From Comamonadaceae bacterium (lineage in GTDB: Bacteria > Pseudomonadota > Gammaproteobacteria > Burkholderiales > Burkholderiaceae_C), in the NCBI GenBank assembly GCA_947469815.1, contig CANIRI010000170.1, positions 1 to 5,632 on the forward strand: a DNA stretch of 5,632 nucleotides, written 5' to 3'. Numbering within the stretch: the first letter of the stretch is position 1; each line of letters opens with the position of its first letter. The translations under genes were made by a program, and so were the position numbers. Below the pieces are notes generated by a model. It searched no databases and was not told the DNA's origin. It was given only the letters and a program-made list of their open reading frames with translations. Shown here piece by piece: positions 3 to 5,632 of this stretch.

Positions 3-266
3 GACGCCCGCCGCCCGCGCATGAACTTTCACGAGCTGGGCATTCCCACTGGGTCGGTGCTGCTGTTCAAAGACGGGCTGTCGCAGGTGACGGTGGTCAG
101 CGACAGAAAGGTGGAACTCGACGGCACAGTCTGCTCCCTGACCGCCGCCACCCGCAAGCTGCTGGGCCTGCCCGACGACTACCCGCTGCAACCCTCGCCA
201 CACTGGAGCTTTAACGGCCAGTCGCTCAAGGCGCTGTATGAGGCGGTGCACGATGGTGGGGATTGA
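3..266 (+). CDS. 3' part of a gene with a DUF4357-like C-terminal domain (5' end outside window)
   Basis: The reading frame is open to the left edge of the window. The first ATG (position 21) has no purine-rich ribosome binding site before it, so this is probably the tail of a longer gene, not an 81-residue protein. The sequence from MNFHELGIPTGS on alternates beta-type segments: a start like 'LGIPxGS', a hydrophobic strand, 'VTVVSDRKVELDG', 'SLTAATRKLLGL' and a final 'HWSFNGQSLKALYE'. That order resembles the DUF4357 domain, found at the C-terminus of restriction-modification-associated and GIY-YIG-type proteins, but the match is from memory of the pattern. No catalytic residues are visible and the role is unknown. 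The stop lies 30 bp before the next gene on the same strand, so the two may be co-transcribed. It could also be a short stand-alone protein starting at 21. Confidence 0.5.
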   Translation, partial: DARRPRMNFHELGIPTGSVLLFKDGLSQVTVVSDRKVELDGTVCSLTAATRKLLGLPDDYPLQPSPHWSFNGQSLKALYEAVHDGGD

Positions 267-296: not shown

Positions 297-713
297 ATGG
301 CAATTTCTCACAAAAATTTCGACGCCGCCAACCGCCGCGCCGTTCAGACCAAGGCGAAGCATGCGGTGGTGACCAAAGTGCGCTACGACGCGCGGCGCAA
401 ACGCATTGTTTTGCACTTGGAGTCGGGCGTAGAGCTGGCTTTTGCGCCGCATCTGGCGCAGGGCTTGGAAGGTGCAAGCGCCGCCGATTTAGCCGGTGCG
501 CAAATCAGTCCCTCGGGTTTGGGTTTGCATTTCCCGGCACTGGACGCCGACCTGTACCTGCCTGGGCTCTTGGACGGCCTATTCGGCTCCCGCCGCTGGA
601 TCGCTGCACAAAACGGACGCGCTGGCGGCAAGGCCCAAAGCGAGGCTAAAGCGCAGGCAGCCCGCAGCAATGGCGCGCGGGGCGGGCGACCGAAAAAACC
701 AGTGTCCGCCTGA
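297..713 (+). CDS. DUF2442 domain protein with a basic AT-hook-like tail
   Basis: This is a 138-residue protein. I chose ATG 297 over the in-frame GTG at 288 because GGAG (285-288) sits 8 nt before ATG 297, and GTG 288 would overlap that ribosome binding site. Residues ~22-96 follow the DUF2442 pattern: a strand 'VTKVRYDARRKRIVLHL', a glycine turn 'ESGVELAF', then 'ISPSGLGLHFPALDADLYL' and 'PGLLDGLFG'. Residues ~98-138 are rich in Ala, Lys, Arg and Gly and end in 'GARGGRPKK', close to an AT-hook core and typical of nucleic-acid-binding tails. Small DUF2442 proteins are often encoded beside DUF4160 proteins in putative toxin-antitoxin-like pairs; no DUF4160 partner is seen here. DNA binding and antitoxin-like function are inferences. 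The stop codon lies 8 bp before the first copy of the gntR-tail repeat. Confidence 0.75.
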   Translation: MAISHKNFDAANRRAVQTKAKHAVVTKVRYDARRKRIVLHLESGVELAFAPHLAQGLEGASAADLAGAQISPSGLGLHFPALDADLYLPGLLDGLFGSRRWIAAQNGRAGGKAQSEAKAQAARSNGARGGRPKKPVSA

Positions 714-721
714 AAGTTCGC

Positions 722-782
722 CCCCTCACGCATCAATCACCCGACGTGTGAACTGCTCTAGGTAATCCATCAGCTGACTGGC
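722..782. repeat. Direct repeat, copy 1: displaced 3' tail of gntR
   Basis: Bases 722-779 match 1530-1587 at 56 of 58 positions, offset 808 bp, same orientation; the match can be extended to 782 with one more mismatch. Read on the minus strand it encodes ASQLMDYLEQFTRRVIDA and a TGA stop (complement of 726-728), which is the exact C-terminus of the GntR protein encoded at 1534-2211. Differences from copy 2 are at 747 (Thr ACA versus ACG), 773 (Leu CTG versus TTG) and 780 (Ala GCC versus GCG): all synonymous. Further upstream on the minus strand the reading changes to an unrelated KGSKNLSRR. It is therefore a gene fragment, not a gene, and it begins 8 bp after the DUF2442 stop. Confidence 0.93.
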
Positions 783-844
783 GCGGCGGGACAAATTTTT
801 CGATCCCTTACTATTGCGCAGAGTTTTTGTTTGAAAGAACGCGA
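783..844 (+). promoter_or_regulatory. AT-rich leader upstream of mntA, probable promoter region
   Basis: This 62-bp stretch between the repeat copy and mntA is clearly more AT-rich than its surroundings (runs AAATTTTT at 793-800 and GTTTTTG at 823-829). It is the only space in which the toxin-antitoxin operon could have its own promoter. TACTAT (809-814) matches 4 of 6 bases of a sigma70 -10 box, but no convincing -35 box lies 16-18 bp before it. GAAAG (833-837) is a weak ribosome binding site 7 nt before ATG 845. I see no clear palindromic operator. The promoter call is an inference from position and composition. Confidence 0.35.
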
Positions 845-1135
845 ATGCGCCCCTCAGTAGTGCTTGACCTGAAGCGAAGTGCAGTGCGCGAAGCGGTCAG
901 CCGCTTCCGCACGGCGAACCTGCGCGTCTTTGGGTCGGCGCTGCATGGCAGCGACCTGGATGGCAGTGACCTGGATTTGCTGGTTGATGCGTTGCCGGGT
1001 GCCACCTTGCTGGACTTAGGCGGCCTGCAGGACGAGCTGCAATCGTTACTAGGCATTCGCGTTGATTTGCTGACCCCAGGCGACTTGCCGCAGAAGTTCC
1101 GGGCCCAGGTGCTTGCGGAGGCGCGGCCCGTATGA
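845..1135 (+). CDS. mntA: MNT-domain nucleotidyltransferase antitoxin (MntA type)
   Basis: This 96-residue minimal nucleotidyltransferase is the antitoxin of an MNT/HEPN toxin-antitoxin pair. In characterised members MntA neutralises the HepT RNase by transferring AMP units to a tyrosine of the toxin. The signature GSX10DXD is exact: G30-S31, ten residues, then D42-L43-D44. A third acidic position is D74 in 'IRVDLLT', giving the usual metal-binding triad. 'VFGSALHG' and 'SDLDLLVD' are typical of the family, as is the length. ATG 845 is preferred over the in-frame TTG at 827, because family proteins start close to 'MRPSVVLD' and GAAAG lies 7 nt before it. The stop overlaps the start of hepT by 4 bp (ATGA, 1132-1135), so the two are translationally coupled with the antitoxin first. 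The gene belongs to the segment bracketed by the gntR-tail repeats. Confidence 0.92.
   Translation: MRPSVVLDLKRSAVREAVSRFRTANLRVFGSALHGSDLDGSDLDLLVDALPGATLLDLGGLQDELQSLLGIRVDLLTPGDLPQKFRAQVLAEARPV
947..976 (+). repeat. 15-bp in-frame tandem duplication inside the mntA active-site loop
   Basis: Bases 947-961 and 962-976 are identical except one position (C952 versus T967, synonymous). They encode GSDLD twice, residues 35-39 and 40-44. The second unit supplies the catalytic D42/D44. The first unit forms part of the ten-residue spacer of GSX10DXD, so the normal motif spacing is kept. Confidence 0.9.
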
Positions 1136-1518
1136 ATCAGAACCGTCTGCCTGATTACGTCGACCACATTCAGCAGGCCGCAGCAGATGTATGCAGCTTC
1201 GTGCAGGGGTTAGCCAAGGACGACTTCCTCGCCGACAAGCGCACCCAGCAGGCAGTGATCATGAGCCTCATGATCATCGGCGAGGCTGCAACGAAAGCGA
1301 TGGAGGGCTATGCAGCGTTCACGCAGGCGCACCCAGAGGTGCCGTGGCGCAATATGCGCGGCATGCGCAACCGAATGGCCCACGGCTATTTCGACATCGA
1401 CCTTCATGTGGTGTGGGAGACGACACAGGAATGGGTTCCGGAACTGCTCAAGCAGCTACCCGCCGTGCGTCAGGATGCCGAGAATGAAGACCCGAATGGC
1501 GATCGAACGGTGCCGTGA
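1132..1518 (+). CDS. hepT: HEPN-domain RNase toxin (HepT, DUF86 family)
   Basis: This 128-residue, mostly helical protein has the HEPN RNase signature RX4HXY: R79, H84 and Y86 in 'MRNRMAHGYFDID'. Family knowledge: R and H are the catalytic residues of a metal-independent RNase formed at the dimer interface, and the Tyr is the site AMPylated by MntA. Other family marks are 'LMIIGEAA' (residues 46-53) and 'PWRNMRGMRN' (71-80). The length is normal for DUF86 proteins. All key residues are present, so the toxin looks intact. The ATG lies within the mntA stop (ATGA overlap); no separate promoter is needed. The last residues (from about 115) are polar and probably disordered. The gene ends 15 bp from the convergent gntR stop. 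A tRNA or mRNA target cannot be told from sequence. Confidence 0.92.
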   Translation: MNQNRLPDYVDHIQQAAADVCSFVQGLAKDDFLADKRTQQAVIMSLMIIGEAATKAMEGYAAFTQAHPEVPWRNMRGMRNRMAHGYFDIDLHVVWETTQEWVPELLKQLPAVRQDAENEDPNGDRTVP

Positions 1519-1529
1519 CGGAGATTCCT

Positions 1530-1590
1530 CCCCTCACGCATCAATCACCCGACGCGTGAACTGCTCTAGGTAATCCATCAACTGACTCGC
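1530..1590. repeat. Direct repeat, copy 2: 3' end of the intact gntR
   Basis: This is the partner of the copy at 722-782 (808 bp apart, same orientation). It contains the last 18 codons of gntR, its TGA (complement of 1534-1536) and 4 identical bases beyond the stop. A TTC at 1525-1527 also matches 717-719. With copy 1 it brackets the complete mntA-hepT pair: repeat, AT-rich leader, mntA, hepT, repeat. Identity stops abruptly inside the coding sequence, where copy 2 continues into the real gntR (Gly GGT) and copy 1 does not. Confidence 0.93.
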
Positions 1591-2211
1591 ACCATCCGCT
1601 GCTTGGGCTGCGTTGCCTGAGGCGATGGCCTGGGCCAGGACCATGTGGCGGCGGGCGCCTTCGGTGATTTCGCCTTCGTTTTGGTAGCGGTACCAGAAGC
1701 GGCGGCACTGCACGACCAACGGGACCACGGCTTTGACGGCGGCGAAGTTGCCGCAGGCAGCGTGGTTCACGTGGTCCAGCGCCTGGTCTGCGGCCATGTA
1801 TTCGTCCAGGTTGCCGCCCTGGCTGGAGGTAATCATTTTTTCGGCGCACAGCACCAGGTTTTTGCGCTGCTCCGGGCTGGCCCGGCGCGCGGAGCAGGTG
1901 GCGATGAGTTGCTCGAGCACGCGGCGGGTTTCAATCACATCGAGGTGGTCGACCACGTCGATGGTGGAGACCGTCAGCCCCCGGCGCGGCTGCTGCACGA
2001 TCAGGCCGATAGAGACCATGCGCATCAGCGCCTCGCGCACGGGGGTGCGTCCGAGCTGGGCCATCTCGGCCAGTTCAGCCTCCACCACCGTTGAGCCGGG
2101 CGCAATCTCCAGCTTGGAAATCATGGCCTCGATGCGGTCGTAGGCCATATCCGCAGCGCGGCGCTTGGGCTCTGGCGGCTTTTTAGCCTTGGGTGGCGTA
2201 CGGGTGCTCAT
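1534..2211 (-). CDS. GntR-family regulator with FCD domain, probable hydroxyproline operon regulator
   Basis: This is a 225-residue transcription factor. Residues 1-19 are a Lys/Pro/Arg-rich leader. Residues ~22-82 are the GntR winged helix, with 'GRTPVREALMRM' (54-65) as recognition region and 'GLIVQQPRRGLTV' (69-81) as wing. Residues ~88-220 form the all-helical FCD ligand domain. FCD proteins often bind metal through one Asp and three His; here D142 and H189 are kept, but the expected His at 146 is Asp (H147 follows it) and the last His position is Tyr (Y214), so the metal site may be altered or lost. The ATG overlaps the stop of the upstream oxidoreductase gene (ATGA, 2208-2211) and has no ribosome binding site of its own, so it depends on translation of the operon. 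Sensing hydroxyproline or an intermediate is inferred from context. Its last ~57 bp are duplicated at 722-782. Confidence 0.88.
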   Translation of the reverse strand: MSTRTPPKAKKPPEPKRRAADMAYDRIEAMISKLEIAPGSTVVEAELAEMAQLGRTPVREALMRMVSIGLIVQQPRRGLTVSTIDVVDHLDVIETRRVLEQLIATCSARRASPEQRKNLVLCAEKMITSSQGGNLDEYMAADQALDHVNHAACGNFAAVKAVVPLVVQCRRFWYRYQNEGEITEGARRHMVLAQAIASGNAAQAADGASQLMDYLEQFTRRVIDA

Positions 2212-3521
2212 GGGCGTGGCGGGTCAATGGTTGCGGGAATAGTACGTGATGGTCTCTCGGCCATGCGGCTGAGCGTGCCCACGCGCGCGGGCGAGAGCGG
2301 CGGGCGCGGGGAGGGCGTTTGCCAGCCCCACAAATGCTGCGCCGCTGCGCCGCAGACCCGGCCCTGGCAAGCGCCCATGCCGCAGCGGGTGGCCAGTTTG
2401 GCCTCGGTCCAGCCGCTGCAGGCAGCGACATCGGCGTAGGCCACGTCTTCGCAGCGGCAAAAAATGGTGTCCGCTTGCGCCAGCTTTTTCAGCGCGGGCG
2501 ACAGAGAAAAATGCTTTGCTAAACGGCGGGCAAACGCAGCCCAATGCGCGTGCTCTGCCAAGGCCTGTTGCGCCACGGTTTGCCCGGTTGCAGCCAGTCC
2601 CGCGATACGCCCTTCGGCCATAGACAGCTCCACGCCGCCCGCGCCTGTGCATTCGCCCGCAGCAAAAACGCCGGGCAGCGACGTGGCCTGCCGCGCATCC
2701 ACCGCAAGCACGGTTTTGCCATCAACATCTTGCGCCGTGGCGCACCCCAGCAAGCGACCCGGCTCCGCATTGGGCACCAGCCCGAAGCCCACCGCCAGCC
2801 GGTCGCAGGCCAGCGTTTCCACGCGTTCTCCGTGGCGCAGCTGCACGGATTCAAGCCGCGCTGCGCCTTGCGCGGCGATTACATGGGTGGCGCTGCGGTA
2901 CCGCGCCGTCAACAGGCCCAACGCCTGTAATGCTTTACCCGGCCAGCGCCATAAACCTGCCGCGAACGCGGCGATCTGCGTCGCGTTGGCTTGCTCGGCC
3001 ACGCACAGCACATGGGCGCCCGCGCTGCGGGCACTGGCCGCCGCTGCCAGCAGCAAGGGCCCGCTACCCGCCAACACAATGCACTGGCCGCGCACCGGCA
3101 AGCCGCCTTTGATCAGCGCCTGCAACGCGCCTGCGCCGGTGACGCCGGGCAGGGTCCAGCCGGGAAAAGGCAGCAGCAACTCGCGCGCGCCGGTGCACAG
3201 AATCAGCGCGTCAAAAGTCTGTATCCAAGCCCGCTGCGCGTCTTCCAGCAGCAGGGCGTGCGTGCCCTGCGCGGCCACCACGCGGGTGCCGCAGATCAGG
3301 CGCACATCGGGGCAGGCCGCCAGCGCTGCGCGCAAACGCTGTGCCGGTGCGGATGGCGTTGCGCCCGGACCGCCGCGCCAGATCTGACCGCCGGGTGCCG
3401 GGTTGTCATCGACCACGGTGATCTGCCAGCCCGCGTTCGCGGCAGCCAGTGCCGCGCTCAATCCCGCAGGGCCAGCGCCGATGATGAGCAGCGCGGGGTT
3501 TGGGTCTTGAATGGTGCTCAT
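2208..3521 (-). CDS. lhpE: FAD/NAD-type oxidoreductase, D-hydroxyproline dehydrogenase alpha-type subunit
   Basis: This 437-residue protein resembles the alpha subunits of heteromeric amine/imino-acid dehydrogenases (LhpE; also HcnB, OoxA, SoxA-like). Residues 12-21 hold the FAD Rossmann motif 'IIGAGPAGLS'. A second dinucleotide motif, 'LAGSGPLLLAA', is at 150-160, and 'GVFAAGECTG' (284-293) is the C-terminal FAD-contact motif. Near the end are C355-x-C357 and C385-x4-C390 ('FCRCEDV' and 'GMGACQGRVCG'), the BFD-like [2Fe-2S] site of this family. C380, where relatives usually have Ala as I recall them, is an extra Cys. The start is the ATG overlapping the stop of the 2Fe-2S gene (3518-3521); the 78 extra codons upstream in this frame overlap that gene and do not look like protein. 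The specific substrate is inferred from the neighbours. The symbol follows the Pseudomonas naming. Confidence 0.87.
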   Translation of the reverse strand: MSTIQDPNPALLIIGAGPAGLSAALAAANAGWQITVVDDNPAPGGQIWRGGPGATPSAPAQRLRAALAACPDVRLICGTRVVAAQGTHALLLEDAQRAWIQTFDALILCTGARELLLPFPGWTLPGVTGAGALQALIKGGLPVRGQCIVLAGSGPLLLAAAASARSAGAHVLCVAEQANATQIAAFAAGLWRWPGKALQALGLLTARYRSATHVIAAQGAARLESVQLRHGERVETLACDRLAVGFGLVPNAEPGRLLGCATAQDVDGKTVLAVDARQATSLPGVFAAGECTGAGGVELSMAEGRIAGLAATGQTVAQQALAEHAHWAAFARRLAKHFSLSPALKKLAQADTIFCRCEDVAYADVAACSGWTEAKLATRCGMGACQGRVCGAAAQHLWGWQTPSPRPPLSPARVGTLSRMAERPSRTIPATIDPPRP

Positions 3522-3790
3522 GACGCAGCAGTTCCGGTCTGAATTTGCATGCCGTCTTCGCACACGGTCTGGCAGGCCAGGCGTATGTGGCCGTCCACGC
3601 GCAAGCGGCATTCCTGGCAGATGCCCATGCCGCACAGCGGCGCACGCGGCTGGCCGCTCACTGAGTGGCGGGCCACGCCGTCTCCGCCGTACGCAAGAGC
3701 GGCGGCCACACTGGTGCCCGCTGCAACCCGCACGCTGCGCCCGTCTACCGTGCAATGCACCCAGGCACTGGCTTCGGCTTCGGTGTTCAT
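3518..3790 (-). CDS. lhpF: (2Fe-2S)-binding protein, dehydrogenase gamma-type subunit
   Basis: This is a 90-residue ferredoxin-fold protein. The plant-type cluster ligands are C53-x4-C58-x2-C61-x11-C73 ('PLCGMGICQECRLRVDG' then 'LACQT'), with a further Cys at 77. The N-terminal part has the beta-grasp pattern 'VDGRSVRVAAGTSVAAAL' (15-32). Such small Fer2_4 proteins are electron-transfer subunits between two flavoprotein subunits in D-hydroxyproline dehydrogenase, octopine/nopaline oxidase and HCN synthase (HcnA) complexes. It lies between the alpha- and beta-type genes, with 4-bp ATGA overlaps on both sides (3518-3521 and 3787-3790), which suits fixed stoichiometry. No leader peptide is seen, so the complex is probably cytoplasmic or on the inner face of the membrane. 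It is shorter than HcnA-type proteins that carry long extensions. The gamma assignment rests on context plus the cluster motif. Confidence 0.9.
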   Translation of the reverse strand: MNTEAEASAWVHCTVDGRSVRVAAGTSVAAALAYGGDGVARHSVSGQPRAPLCGMGICQECRLRVDGHIRLACQTVCEDGMQIQTGTAAS

Positions 3791-4887
3791 GCCGCCACCA
3801 GAAAGCGGCTGGCCTGGTAGGGCCGGGCGTCCAGGGCGCAGGCCGCGCCGGTGATCTGCGCGGCGATCAGGCGCGCGGTGGCTGGGGCGGTGGTCACGCC
3901 CAGGCCCTCATGGCCGACGGCCAGCCAAAGTTTGTCGCGTCTGGGGTGTGCGCCGATCAGCGGCAAGCCGTCGGGCGTGGCCGCCCGAAAGCCGGCCCAG
4001 CTACGGGTGATTTGCAAGCCGTCCAGCGCGGGCATGTAAGCCAGCGCACAGGCCAGCATGCGCGCCAGCATGGCGGGCTCCACCGCCGGGTCGGCGCTGT
4101 CGAACTGGCGCGAGGAGCCGATCAACAACTGCCCGCTGGGGCGCGGCTGCACGTTAAAGGCCACCGACGCGCCGCTGGCCAGGTGCGCGCTTTTGACGTA
4201 AGCCAATTCCACCAACTGGTGCTGCACCGTGCCGGGGTAGCGGTCGGTGATCGCCAGGTGGCCTTTTTTGGGTTGCAGCGGCAGATCGGGGCACAGCTTG
4301 GTGGACTGCACGCCACCGGCCAATACCACCGCAGCGGCGCTGCGCCGTGCGCCGCCCTGCAGATGGACCACACCGCCTTCAATTGCCGTGACGTGCGCGC
4401 GCTCGGTGCGGATGGGTACGCGGCCATGGGCCAGCAGCCAGCGTGCGGCGTTGGGGGCGTAGACCACGCCGTCGTTGGCGACCCGCAGTGCGCCGCGCAA
4501 GCCGGGGCGCAGAGCGGGTTCGGCAAGGGCCAGTGCGGCGGCGTCCAGCAGTTCGCTGTTTACGCCAGCGGCGCGCAGGCGCACCTGTTTCTCGCGGGCG
4601 GCCTGCATTTCTTCATCGTCGGCGGCAATCCATAAAGTACCGCAGTGGCTATAGCCGCAGTCGGCGTCCATGCGCGGCACCAGTTCGGCCCACATACCGA
4701 CCGAGGCGCTGCTGAGCGCCAGCTCGGCCGGGTTGTCGTCCATCACCACCACATGGCCCATACCGGCTGCGGTGGCTGCGCCTTCGGCGGCGTCAATCAC
4801 CAACACCTGCAGTCCGTTCTGCGCCAGTTCATAAGCGCAGGCGGCACCCACAATGCCTGCGCCGATGACGATGGCGTCCGCGTCCAT
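3787..4887 (-). CDS. lhpB: DAO-family FAD oxidoreductase, D-hydroxyproline dehydrogenase beta-type subunit
   Basis: This 366-residue flavoprotein of the D-amino-acid oxidase/glycine oxidase/sarcosine oxidase-beta superfamily is the likely catalytic subunit that oxidises cis-4-hydroxy-D-proline to a pyrroline carboxylate. Residues 5-16 give the N-terminal Rossmann motif 'IVIGAGIVGAA', and 'VLVIDAAEGAATAAGMG' follows with the acidic ribose-binding residue. The C-terminus has 'RSWAGFRAATPDGLPLIG' and then 'AVGHEGLGVTTAPATARLIA', the FAD-closing motif of the family. The start is ATG 4887: AAGGA (complement of 4898-4902) lies 10 nt upstream, and the fold begins immediately. An in-frame ATG at 4974 would overlap the racemase gene and add an unlikely basic leader. 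The gap to the racemase stop is 22 bp. Glycine oxidase or another D-imino acid dehydrogenase is the alternative identity. Confidence 0.88.
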   Translation of the reverse strand: MDADAIVIGAGIVGAACAYELAQNGLQVLVIDAAEGAATAAGMGHVVVMDDNPAELALSSASVGMWAELVPRMDADCGYSHCGTLWIAADDEEMQAAREKQVRLRAAGVNSELLDAAALALAEPALRPGLRGALRVANDGVVYAPNAARWLLAHGRVPIRTERAHVTAIEGGVVHLQGGARRSAAAVVLAGGVQSTKLCPDLPLQPKKGHLAITDRYPGTVQHQLVELAYVKSAHLASGASVAFNVQPRPSGQLLIGSSRQFDSADPAVEPAMLARMLACALAYMPALDGLQITRSWAGFRAATPDGLPLIGAHPRRDKLWLAVGHEGLGVTTAPATARLIAAQITGAACALDARPYQASRFLVAA

Positions 4888-4897
4888 GCAGCGCTTT

Positions 4898-4902
4898 TCC
4901 TT
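4898..4902 (-). promoter_or_regulatory. Ribosome binding site of the DAO-family gene
   Basis: On the minus strand AAGGA lies 10 nt before ATG 4887, in the 22-bp gap after the racemase stop. It is the only strong Shine-Dalgarno sequence among the four downstream operon genes; the other three starts overlap the preceding stop and seem to rely on translational coupling. Confidence 0.6.
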
Positions 4903-4909
4903 ACGCCCT

Positions 4910-5632
4910 TTAGCAGGCGAACCAGGTGTCGTTGAGGCGGTAGCCCTCGGGGAAGGGGTCTTGCGGGTCGGCACCGTAATACGACAGGCCGGTGATCCAG
5001 GCGCGCCCGCTGATTTGCGGAATGACAGCGGGCGTACTGCCGACCTGCGCCGTGCCGGTGATTTGGCAATGGAACTCGGTCTCTAAAACCGAGCGGTGTG
5101 TAAAGCGTTCGCCCACGGCGAGTTCGCCGCGCGCGTGCATCAGCGCCATGCGCGCCGAACTGCCAGTTCCGCAGGGGCTGCGGTCCAAACGGCCAGGGGA
5201 TACGACCACGGCGTTCTTCGACGTTTTGATGCCGTCGCGCTGCTCCAGCGGACCGGCAAAAAGGGTCATGTTGATGGTGTGGATGCCGGGGTTGAGCGGG
5301 TGCACGCTGGGCAGTTGCTCAGCGGCGGCTAGCTTGATGCGCTCACCCATCTCGACCAGCGAACGCGCCTCGTTACGCTCCAGCGCAAAGCCCAATGAGG
5401 CGGCGTCAACGATCGCGTAAATCATGCCGCCGTAGGACACGTCCAGCGTCAGCGTGCCCAGACCGGGCACTTCGACGGGTTGGCTGCGGTGCATCACGAA
5501 GGCGGGGACGTTTTGGAAAGTGACGCGGCGGCATTTGCCGTCTTCACATTCGGCGCGCACGCGCACCAGACCGGCTGGGGTGTCAACCACCAACTCGGTC
5601 ACAGGGCTTTGCATGGGGACCATGCCGGTCTC
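4910..5632 (-). CDS. Proline racemase / 4-hydroxyproline 2-epimerase family enzyme (N-terminus outside window)
   Basis: About 240 C-terminal residues of a family normally some 310-345 long are present. The frame is open to the right edge, where 'ETGMV' matches the stretch that follows the first catalytic motif (MCGHGTIG type) in family members. So the ATG at 5623 is internal and not the start. The second catalytic Cys is in 'DRSPCGTGSSARMA' (Cys codon at 5171-5173). 'GGMIYAIVDA' and 'HTINMTLFAGP' are also typical. These enzymes use two Cys residues to invert the alpha carbon; trans-3-hydroxyproline dehydratases replace the first with Ser or Thr. That residue lies beyond the window, so epimerase and dehydratase cannot be separated on sequence. 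The adjacent D-hydroxyproline dehydrogenase genes favour the 4-hydroxyproline 2-epimerase (called LhpA in Pseudomonas). It is the first operon gene seen here, so the operon promoter is probably beyond the edge. Confidence 0.9.
   Translation of the reverse strand, partial: ETGMVPMQSPVTELVVDTPAGLVRVRAECEDGKCRRVTFQNVPAFVMHRSQPVEVPGLGTLTLDVSYGGMIYAIVDAASLGFALERNEARSLVEMGERIKLAAAEQLPSVHPLNPGIHTINMTLFAGPLEQRDGIKTSKNAVVVSPGRLDRSPCGTGSSARMALMHARGELAVGERFTHRSVLETEFHCQITGTAQVGSTPAVIPQISGRAWITGLSYYGADPQDPFPEGYRLNDTWFAC

Follow-up and report, generated by a model that had tools for sequence, protein, structure and literature searches.

How do chromosomal toxin–antitoxin pairs and other small defence cassettes that carry no recombinase move and accumulate? 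This open question is raised by a stretch of DNA of 5632 bp (hereafter, the window), which is the whole contig of one incomplete metagenome assembly (75% complete, 317 contigs). In the window, two copies of the 3′ end of a gntR gene bracket exactly one complete mntA-hepT pair. Homologous recombination anchored in gntR, with the incoming gene tail displacing the resident one, probably brought the mntA-hepT cassette to its position in the window. The tail repeat, the intact gene and the complete cassette can be read directly in the window, and the mechanism of the window itself is what we infer.

The gntR Tail Repeat and the Layout of the Window

The copies of the direct repeat occupy positions 717–782 and 1525–1590, both in minus-strand orientation and 808 bp apart from start to start. 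They are identical at 61 of 66 positions without gaps, and the mismatches fall at 720, 721, 747, 773 and 780 in the numbering of copy 1. The initial annotation had described the core of this repeat (722–779 and 1530–1587, 56 of 58 positions identical, mismatches at 747 and 773) on either side of one MNT-HEPN pair; this description was confirmed and the repeat was extended to 66 bp. Among the matches listed (20 of 38 families), it is the longest direct repeat in the window. Copy 2 begins 6 bp past the hepT stop codon and is the in-place 3′ end of the intact gntR (1534–2211, minus strand). This gene encodes a FCD-type regulator with FCD and GntR Pfam domains, is convergent with the cassette and represents the anchor gene. 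Copy 1 encodes the same ASQLMDYLEQFTRRVIDA with a stop codon at 726–728 and has no gntR body behind it, which bears out the earlier distinction between a real gene end and an orphan tail.

Three codons differ between the copies (GCC/GCG, CTG/TTG and ACA/ACG), and all of the differences are synonymous. For three silent differences out of three, p is 0.01–0.02 under simple neutrality and ~0.08 under a half-neutral model in which the orphan drifts and the intact gene is constrained. The silent-site argument in the window is therefore suggestive, not decisive, and cannot alone carry the argument for selection.

The outer (left) cassette lies on the other side of the orphan. Its first gene (3–266, plus strand) encodes a candidate defence protein (PADLOC PDC-S57), of which the C-terminal part is present; the frame is open at the contig start and matches profile positions 128–207 of 212 over 21–266 (E 2.6e-19). 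The second is a DUF2442 gene (297–713, plus strand; PF10387, E 1.5e-13). The DUF2442 stop codon is located 3 bp before the orphan repeat. Each of the two-gene modules thus ends 3 to 6 bp short of one of the gntR tails, and the layout is that of an array and not of one insert. Past the internal break of the orphan, there is a 14-bp filler (783–796), identified by alignment to cassette relatives and probably representing an illegitimate junction. It is followed by the upstream region of the cassette (797–844, plus strand), which is common to the relatives and may act as a promoter.

In line with the earlier statement that the cassette has no recombinase, no recombinase, transposase, resolvase or integrase was recognised among the nine window proteins scanned. 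The longest inverted pair in the window (29 nt) is not placed around the cassette. Rfam and tRNA scans of the window returned nothing. Further isolated copies of the gntR tail had been suggested as a check, and no third copy was present in the genome to which the window belongs (75% complete, 317 contigs), where the extra matches were of 16–17 bp (E 0.15 and 0.97). Ten other gntR loci of the genus each have a single tail within the 0.8 to 1.5 kb of downstream sequence covered, so the doubled tail is particular to the window's locus. At one of them (G056), where the gntR protein is 93% identical to that of the window, the place of DUF2442 is taken by a dihydrolipoamide-dehydrogenase-like gene (named by eye). 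A gntR gene joined directly to the DUF2442 module through a single tail, which the initial annotation had suggested as the empty form, was recognised at none of the ten loci, with the neighbours judged by eye. Likewise, no donor form at gntR was found among the genus loci examined.

The mntA-hepT Cassette and Its Relatives

The mntA gene (845–1135, plus strand) matches NTP_transf_2 (PF01909, E 4.2e-10) and the PADLOC candidate family PDC-S09. It overlaps hepT (1132–1518, plus strand; HepT-like PF01934, E 5.2e-27) at 1132–1135. GSX10DXD, which we take to be the motif of MNT nucleotidyltransferases, is present in mntA, and hepT carries RX4HXY, presumably a form of the HepT-like motif RX4-6HXY. 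By Pfam domains and motifs, the pair belongs to the MntA-HepT (MNT-HEPN) type. It is predicted to be a toxin–antitoxin pair in which HepT would be toxic and MntA would neutralise it.

In 12 fetched relatives of the cassette, DNA similarity starts at 797 or 799, and in 11 of these (L065–L070, L077, L078 and L142–L144) it starts at 797; most of the other relatives, from a named-genome search, start at 821. At the other end, similarity stops most often at 1492 or 1519. Nine of the 11 relatives that start at 797 stay alike further upstream, where the window switches to the gntR tail after the 14-bp filler. The left edge of the cassette in the window is thus a break and not the natural end of a cassette.

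Judging by record titles, the relatives occur across many Proteobacteria, and 1459 plasmid records contain them. A Tn3-type transposase gene lies within 500 bp of the relative at 32 of 80 fetched loci (some of which are cut by contig ends), PF01526 was confirmed for one of these transposases, and a resolvase gene directly follows the relative at L067. None of the 26 genus loci tested contains a match to that Tn3 transposase. Flanking repeats accompany MNT-HEPN pairs at 9 of 25 genus loci (three of them with only CR1, an intergenic repeat, and one with 18 bp), in comparison to 3 of 73 loci that come from other taxa and 21 of 400 random control segments, some of which lie inside DUF924 arrays. 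This check of the genus loci led to the DUF924 gene (PF06041).

DUF924 Arrays

The 3′ end of the DUF924 gene recurs in local series with cassettes between the copies. An 18-base pattern from the tail (at most one mismatch) is found in 28 of 103 genus genomes, and ten of these have two to four copies within ~11 kb. A protein match was present in 68 genus genomes; loci were fetched for 49 of them, and the first ones were picked for tail hits, so the orphan rate is not unbiased. The gene is intact at 39 of the 49 loci, and ten contain only fragments. A displaced 3′ copy or an extra full copy lies downstream of 13 of the 39 intact genes; the other 26 are free of such copies, with 12 of them having downstream sequence of ~1.5 kb or less. 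Five extra copies are found in G009, and six were counted in G110.

A 3′ orphan was defined as a piece ending at gene position 555 or later, so reaching the gene end is true by definition. The start of the orphans varies from copy to copy, between positions 74 and 532 of 567, and a few starts (506/507 and 435/436) recur with different cassettes. Pieces that fall short of the gene end or come from the 5′ side also occur, some of them internally deleted, and G046, G055 and G110 have pieces without the gene end, some fused to tails. Whole extra copies with cassettes between them are present in G123 and G110, and also in G331 and G327. A full second gntR at 722 that decayed in place had been named at the outset as a form that would speak against displacement; full second copies of this kind exist at DUF924. 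Given these whole second copies, the 66-bp gntR orphan may be what is left of a displaced copy that was once longer. The intact gene comes after broken copies and not first in G341 and G159. In the family, 12 of 185 genomes with a DUF924 match have more than one. Six such genomes were fetched, and in four of them, from four other genera (G331, G327, G341 and G159), repeated copies with cassettes between them were seen, with the cargo judged by eye.

The cargo between the copies is diverse and includes MNT-HEPN, ORF6N, HTH-MNT, DUF2442, zeta-toxin-like, HTH+AbiEii, NERD nuclease and NERD-UvrD genes. When nine proteins were compared with PADLOC, matches to defence or candidate defence families were obtained for the first gene of the window, mntA, ORF6N, HTH-MNT and NERD-UvrD; the NERD nuclease matched weakly, and the hepT and DUF2442 proteins had no match. 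The second gene of the HTH-MNT pair in the window's own genome also matches such a family. On another contig of this genome, glnS is followed by a PDC-M05-type pair and a DUF924 tail that lacks the gene body. Directly after DUF924, five different contents were found in nine close genomes. An empty site can be recognised as well: in G101 and G033, the last 61 bp of the orphan and ~700 bp of the adjoining outer sequence line up colinearly (90%) with G001, where they correspond to the end of the single gene and its flank. Scanning the intact DUF924 genes of G101, G033 and G104 in 50-nt windows revealed no clear mosaic break.

In the pooled comparison of 18 orphan and intact DUF924 pairs, pN/pS is 0.32 versus 0.29 among intact genes; one misaligned orphan (G110_11735) out of 19 was left out of this comparison. 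These substitution counts support the view that the pooled copies diverged as genes under purifying selection. The initial annotation had read silent differences as a sign that both gntR copies were selected; this reading agrees with the three silent codons and with the pooled ratio, and it falls short of decisive in the window taken alone. Several orphans are rich in nonsynonymous changes (one in G009 with N 17.5 versus S 5.5, and one in G110 with N 17 versus S 7), which points to drift after displacement. The copies differ by up to ~20%. Among the 19 orphans that have an intact gene in the same genome, 10 are nearer to the intact allele of another genome, some by a margin of only 0.01–0.02 in identity or over less than 65 bp. 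Another 8 have no closer match than their own intact gene (ties included), which is the pattern expected of duplication within a genome, and the misaligned one was set aside. The three full or near-complete copies of G123 are each nearer to the allele of another species than to their siblings, which speaks against simple tandem duplication.

Photolyase and Other Anchor Genes

At a DNA photolyase gene (PF03441), the geometry of the layout is the same as in the window. The order in G133 and G011 is an intact photolyase gene, an HTH-MNT gene with a second gene, an orphan photolyase tail and a HipA-like gene, with the cassette and the photolyase gene facing each other 3′ end to 3′ end. The HipA-like gene has a PF13657 match in G133, where no Pfam match was obtained for the second cassette gene. 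G139 represents the empty site: its single photolyase end continues without a break into sequence that matches G133 colinearly (87.7% over 1.6 kb), starting at the orphan tail and leading outward, and this stretch includes the HipA-like gene. G045 and G137 have the same cassette beside the photolyase gene and no orphan in the stretch, which is a donor-like form. The tail copy and mntA-hepT without any empty-site form had been proposed as a refutation of displacement; such a result is partly present here, in that the cassette of G045 and G137 has no orphan tail, alongside an empty-site relative at this gene.

KKVETTV is the end encoded by the photolyase orphan, whose 3′ flank can be aligned with G139; the intact photolyase genes of G133 and G011 have KKVEIVDQP as their end. 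Since both the end and the flank of the orphan match G139 and not the adjoining intact gene, the orphan keeps the old end of the resident gene. Compared with the intact photolyase gene of the same genome, the G133 orphan shows 95% identity in its coding part (85 bp), which counts against displacement; coding part and flank together are 83% identical to G139 over 254 bp.

Two further anchors were found. An ORF6N gene in G107 is flanked by a 273-bp tail of an aminotransferase-type gene (PF00155), which is itself truncated at the contig start, and the two tails differ by 21 synonymous and 6 nonsynonymous changes. In G031, an hsdS tail (PF01420; open frame of 409 codons) flanks an MNT-HEPN pair, with S 9 and N 8. 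The anchors are mostly unrelated to their cargo, and hsdS is the one nearest to a defence locus. The initial annotation had suggested looking for other cargo between tail copies; displaced-tail layouts with cassettes recur at DUF924, the photolyase gene, the aminotransferase-type gene and hsdS.

Alternative Explanations

Several other processes could leave two gene ends around a cassette. Unequal crossing over within a lineage might have duplicated gntR together with the cassette in tandem, after which the redundant gntR would have been deleted down to its tail. The whole DUF924 copies with cassettes between them (G123, G110, G331 and G327) fit such a duplication, as do the 8 orphans closest to their own intact gene, and the internally deleted copies of G055, G046, G341 and G159 fit a duplication with subsequent trimming. 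Nevertheless, the cassettes between copies belong to different families and are not duplicates of each other, the three G123 copies are each nearer to other species, and the end and 3′ flank of the photolyase orphan are those of the empty-site relative. We consider tandem duplication unlikely; trimming of an imported copy is compatible with recombination anchored in the gene as well. Site-specific integration at gene 3′ ends, with a recombinase acting in trans and the tails as left and right attachment sites, follows the logic invoked initially. It would account for cassettes at gene ends with the gene restored, and for the few DUF924 orphan starts that recur with different cassettes. The other orphan starts show no fixed crossover, the anchors are unrelated genes, the copies differ by up to ~20%, and the window has no recognised integrase. 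A site-specific element was rejected for the variable starts, and the attachment-site reading is very unlikely. Integron cassettes were set aside too: no attC core motif (RYYYAAC or GTTRRRY) is present in or within ~20 bp of the two gntR tails, and no integron integrase above the cut-off was detected in the 75% complete genome.

The plasmid records, the frequent Tn3-type neighbours of the cassette relatives and the resolvase gene of L067 would suit a transposition event that left a long target-site duplication, such as one caused by a Tn3-family element since reduced to its toxin–antitoxin part. A target duplication that has just arisen consists of short, identical copies (5 bp for Tn3). In contrast, the tails measure tens to hundreds of bp, the pooled DUF924 copies appear to have diverged like selected genes, and the 66-bp repeat is not accompanied by transposon ends. 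With no match to the Tn3 transposase in the 26 genus loci, a Tn3 remnant was rejected as the cause of the repeat, and transposition in general is highly improbable. An assembly artefact also has to be considered, as the window is a whole contig of a fragmented metagenome assembly. However, the two gntR tails are not identical and share no exact stretch longer than 25 bp, and layouts of this type are also found in assemblies that comprise one to eight contigs (e.g., G118, G106, G104 and G033), so that an artefact can be given next to no credence.

Proposed Mechanism

The resident, donor-like and occupied forms at the photolyase gene, together with the variable orphan starts, make one-sided homologous recombination with an illegitimate far junction the simplest account. 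Incoming DNA would carry its own gntR tail joined to the cassette, and the resident tail would be pushed to the far side. A crossover inside the conserved anchor gene would form one side of the event. The other side would be a non-homologous join beside the cassette, produced by homology-facilitated illegitimate recombination or an equivalent one-sided event. The initial proposal that an incoming segment with its own gntR allele displaced the old tail agrees with the layouts and with the empty sites in relatives; at the gntR loci examined in the genus, neither an empty nor a donor form was recognised. Repeated rounds of this process would push older cassettes outward, and the DUF2442/PDC-S57 module to the left of the orphan tail would therefore be an older layer. 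A third gntR tail is predicted to the left of the PDC-S57 gene, to the left of position 1 and beyond the contig start. Toxin–antitoxin pairs might persist in such arrays because their deletion by recombination between tails would be punished, and phage protection may also contribute. ComEC is present; it is also found in E. coli, and its presence does not by itself show natural competence.

Since the same layout is found at unrelated genes in relatives, it is likely that predicted defence cassettes spread via the ends of host genes without an enzyme of their own. A broader generalisation can be offered tentatively, as a possibility: ordinary host genes may be the landing platforms of a cassette system that needs no enzyme. 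A borrowed gene tail would be the homology arm of the toxin–antitoxin or defence cassette, and with each arrival the gene would be rebuilt and the old tail left as a spacer. Such a system would be a recombination-driven counterpart of the integron, with arrays at many unrelated gene ends across the bacterial family.

Comparison with Known Systems

The closest parallel in logic is provided by the effector–immunity modules of the type VI secretion system (T6SS) in Vibrio cholerae. In the available text of that work, a new module is placed beside a conserved anchor and the old 3′ part moves to the rear of the array; the process proposed is homology-facilitated illegitimate recombination, the copies come from different strains, and the arrays are likened to those of integrons and compared with orphan Rhs 3′ regions (PMC5361080). 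Orphan 3′ parts of the anchor behind a newer module are common to the T6SS and Rhs arrays, as far as they are described there, and to the window, the DUF924 loci and the photolyase loci. By analogy, the mechanism is best read as following the logic proposed for T6SS arrays, and the new aspect here would be that the anchors are mostly unrelated genes. According to the same text, the T6SS anchor belongs to the toxin gene's own cluster and immunity genes are kept, whereas complete cassettes are found here beside mostly unrelated anchors (PMC5361080).

For integrase-free hotspots, double crossover in both flanking genes has been proposed (PMC5635113). Our reading resembles this model in that accessory genes would be exchanged through core-gene homology without an integrase. 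It differs in being one-sided and marked by a displaced gene tail, since a double crossover in both flanks should leave no tail; partial copies are not described in the available text of that study. Vibrio superintegrons, as far as the available text goes, hold serial cassettes that include toxin–antitoxin pairs (PMC11023631). Toxin–antitoxin cargo in arrays separated by repeats, possibly with a stabilising role, is a shared feature. Unlike in superintegrons, no integron integrase was recognised in the window or, above the cut-off, in its 75% complete genome, the window tails have no attC core motif and the repeats consist of coding sequence from the 3′ ends of host genes. Toxin–antitoxin pairs are also passengers of Tn3-family transposons, as stated in the available part of the source (PMC7157771). 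Many near relatives of the window cassette likewise lie beside tnpA, and one (L067) also beside tnpR, whereas the window itself has no recognised transposase or resolvase. In a literature search that excluded preprints and most subscription journals, no paper pairing DUF924 with toxin–antitoxin genes was found, and none joining toxin–antitoxin, sequential displacement, orphan and homologous recombination. As judged by titles and the beginnings of abstracts in the same search, no comparable toxin–antitoxin array was found.

Displaced gene tails are a readable scar, in which the order of arrival, the junction, and the donor, empty and occupied forms can be recognised in genome collections. If the mechanism is general, the ends of housekeeping genes would be landing sites missed by searches keyed to integrases or tRNA genes. 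Tail repeats would then also explain the swapping of cassettes and why addictive pairs stay.

Further Repeats and Orphan Junctions

Other repeats were considered in the course of this work. Two repeats that flank cassettes were not counted as anchors because no intact copy of the anchor was seen in the stretch: one is histidine-kinase-like (L261), with no Pfam match in the frame that was scanned, and the other is of the DUF1016/YhcG type (L273), with Pfam matches that stay under the cut-off. The intergenic repeat CR1 was tried as the true recombination site and rejected: it follows most of the DUF924 tails printed, is missing after those of G118 and G026, and is absent from the window. As a minor observation, to which little weight is given, the orphan start lies no more than 25 bp from a stop codon upstream of it in 16 of 33 DUF924 orphans; one of the 16 lies after glnS and one after an open frame unlikely to be a real gene.

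Fragments and Repeats at the DUF924 Anchor

The DUF924 gene (PF06041), another anchor in the genus, leaves partial copies not only of its 3' end. Two of the fetched loci, L174 (5374–5503, oriented coordinates) and L158 (6439–6641, oriented coordinates), carry fragments of its 5' end ahead of the complete gene, and therefore the displacement of gene ends may act at gene starts too. In L174, the fragment is separated from the intact DUF924 gene by an antitoxin/ParE-like pair, named by eye.

The genome of the window itself (G000) also carries a DUF924 tail. On its contig C313 (locus L205, reverse strand, oriented coordinates 1029–2269), a PDC-M05-type HTH-MNT gene and a second gene are located between glnS and the tail, and the stop of this cassette overlaps the tail start. 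The DUF924 gene body is absent from this contig.

In many loci, of which L173 (7365–7450) is one example, the stop codon of DUF924 is followed by an intergenic repeat of ~56 bp with a GCTAC...GTAGC stem. It follows most of the DUF924 genes whose downstream sequence was inspected, as well as some cassettes. In one genome (G043), it is present on both sides of a cassette without a downstream DUF924 tail.

Surroundings of the Window Cassette and MNT-HEPN Pairs Elsewhere

The PDC-S57-like gene at window positions 3–266 is already open at the contig start, and therefore a further gntR tail may sit beside it, just past the contig end. Behind gntR, a minus-strand operon (2208–5632) encodes a pyridine-nucleotide/FAD oxidoreductase, a 2Fe-2S protein, an FAD oxidoreductase of the DAO type, and a member of the proline racemase family; it resembles an operon for hydroxyproline or proline catabolism, its putative role.

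Outside the genus, MNT-HEPN cassettes are flanked by direct repeats in Tepidimonas (L077; 242 bp) and Nitrosomonas (L143; 130 bp). Judged by eye, the L077 repeat looks like the end of an IS605-type OrfB. In L045 and L046, the MNT-HEPN pairs appear to be bracketed by the hsdS and hsdR genes of a type I restriction system, also named by eye.
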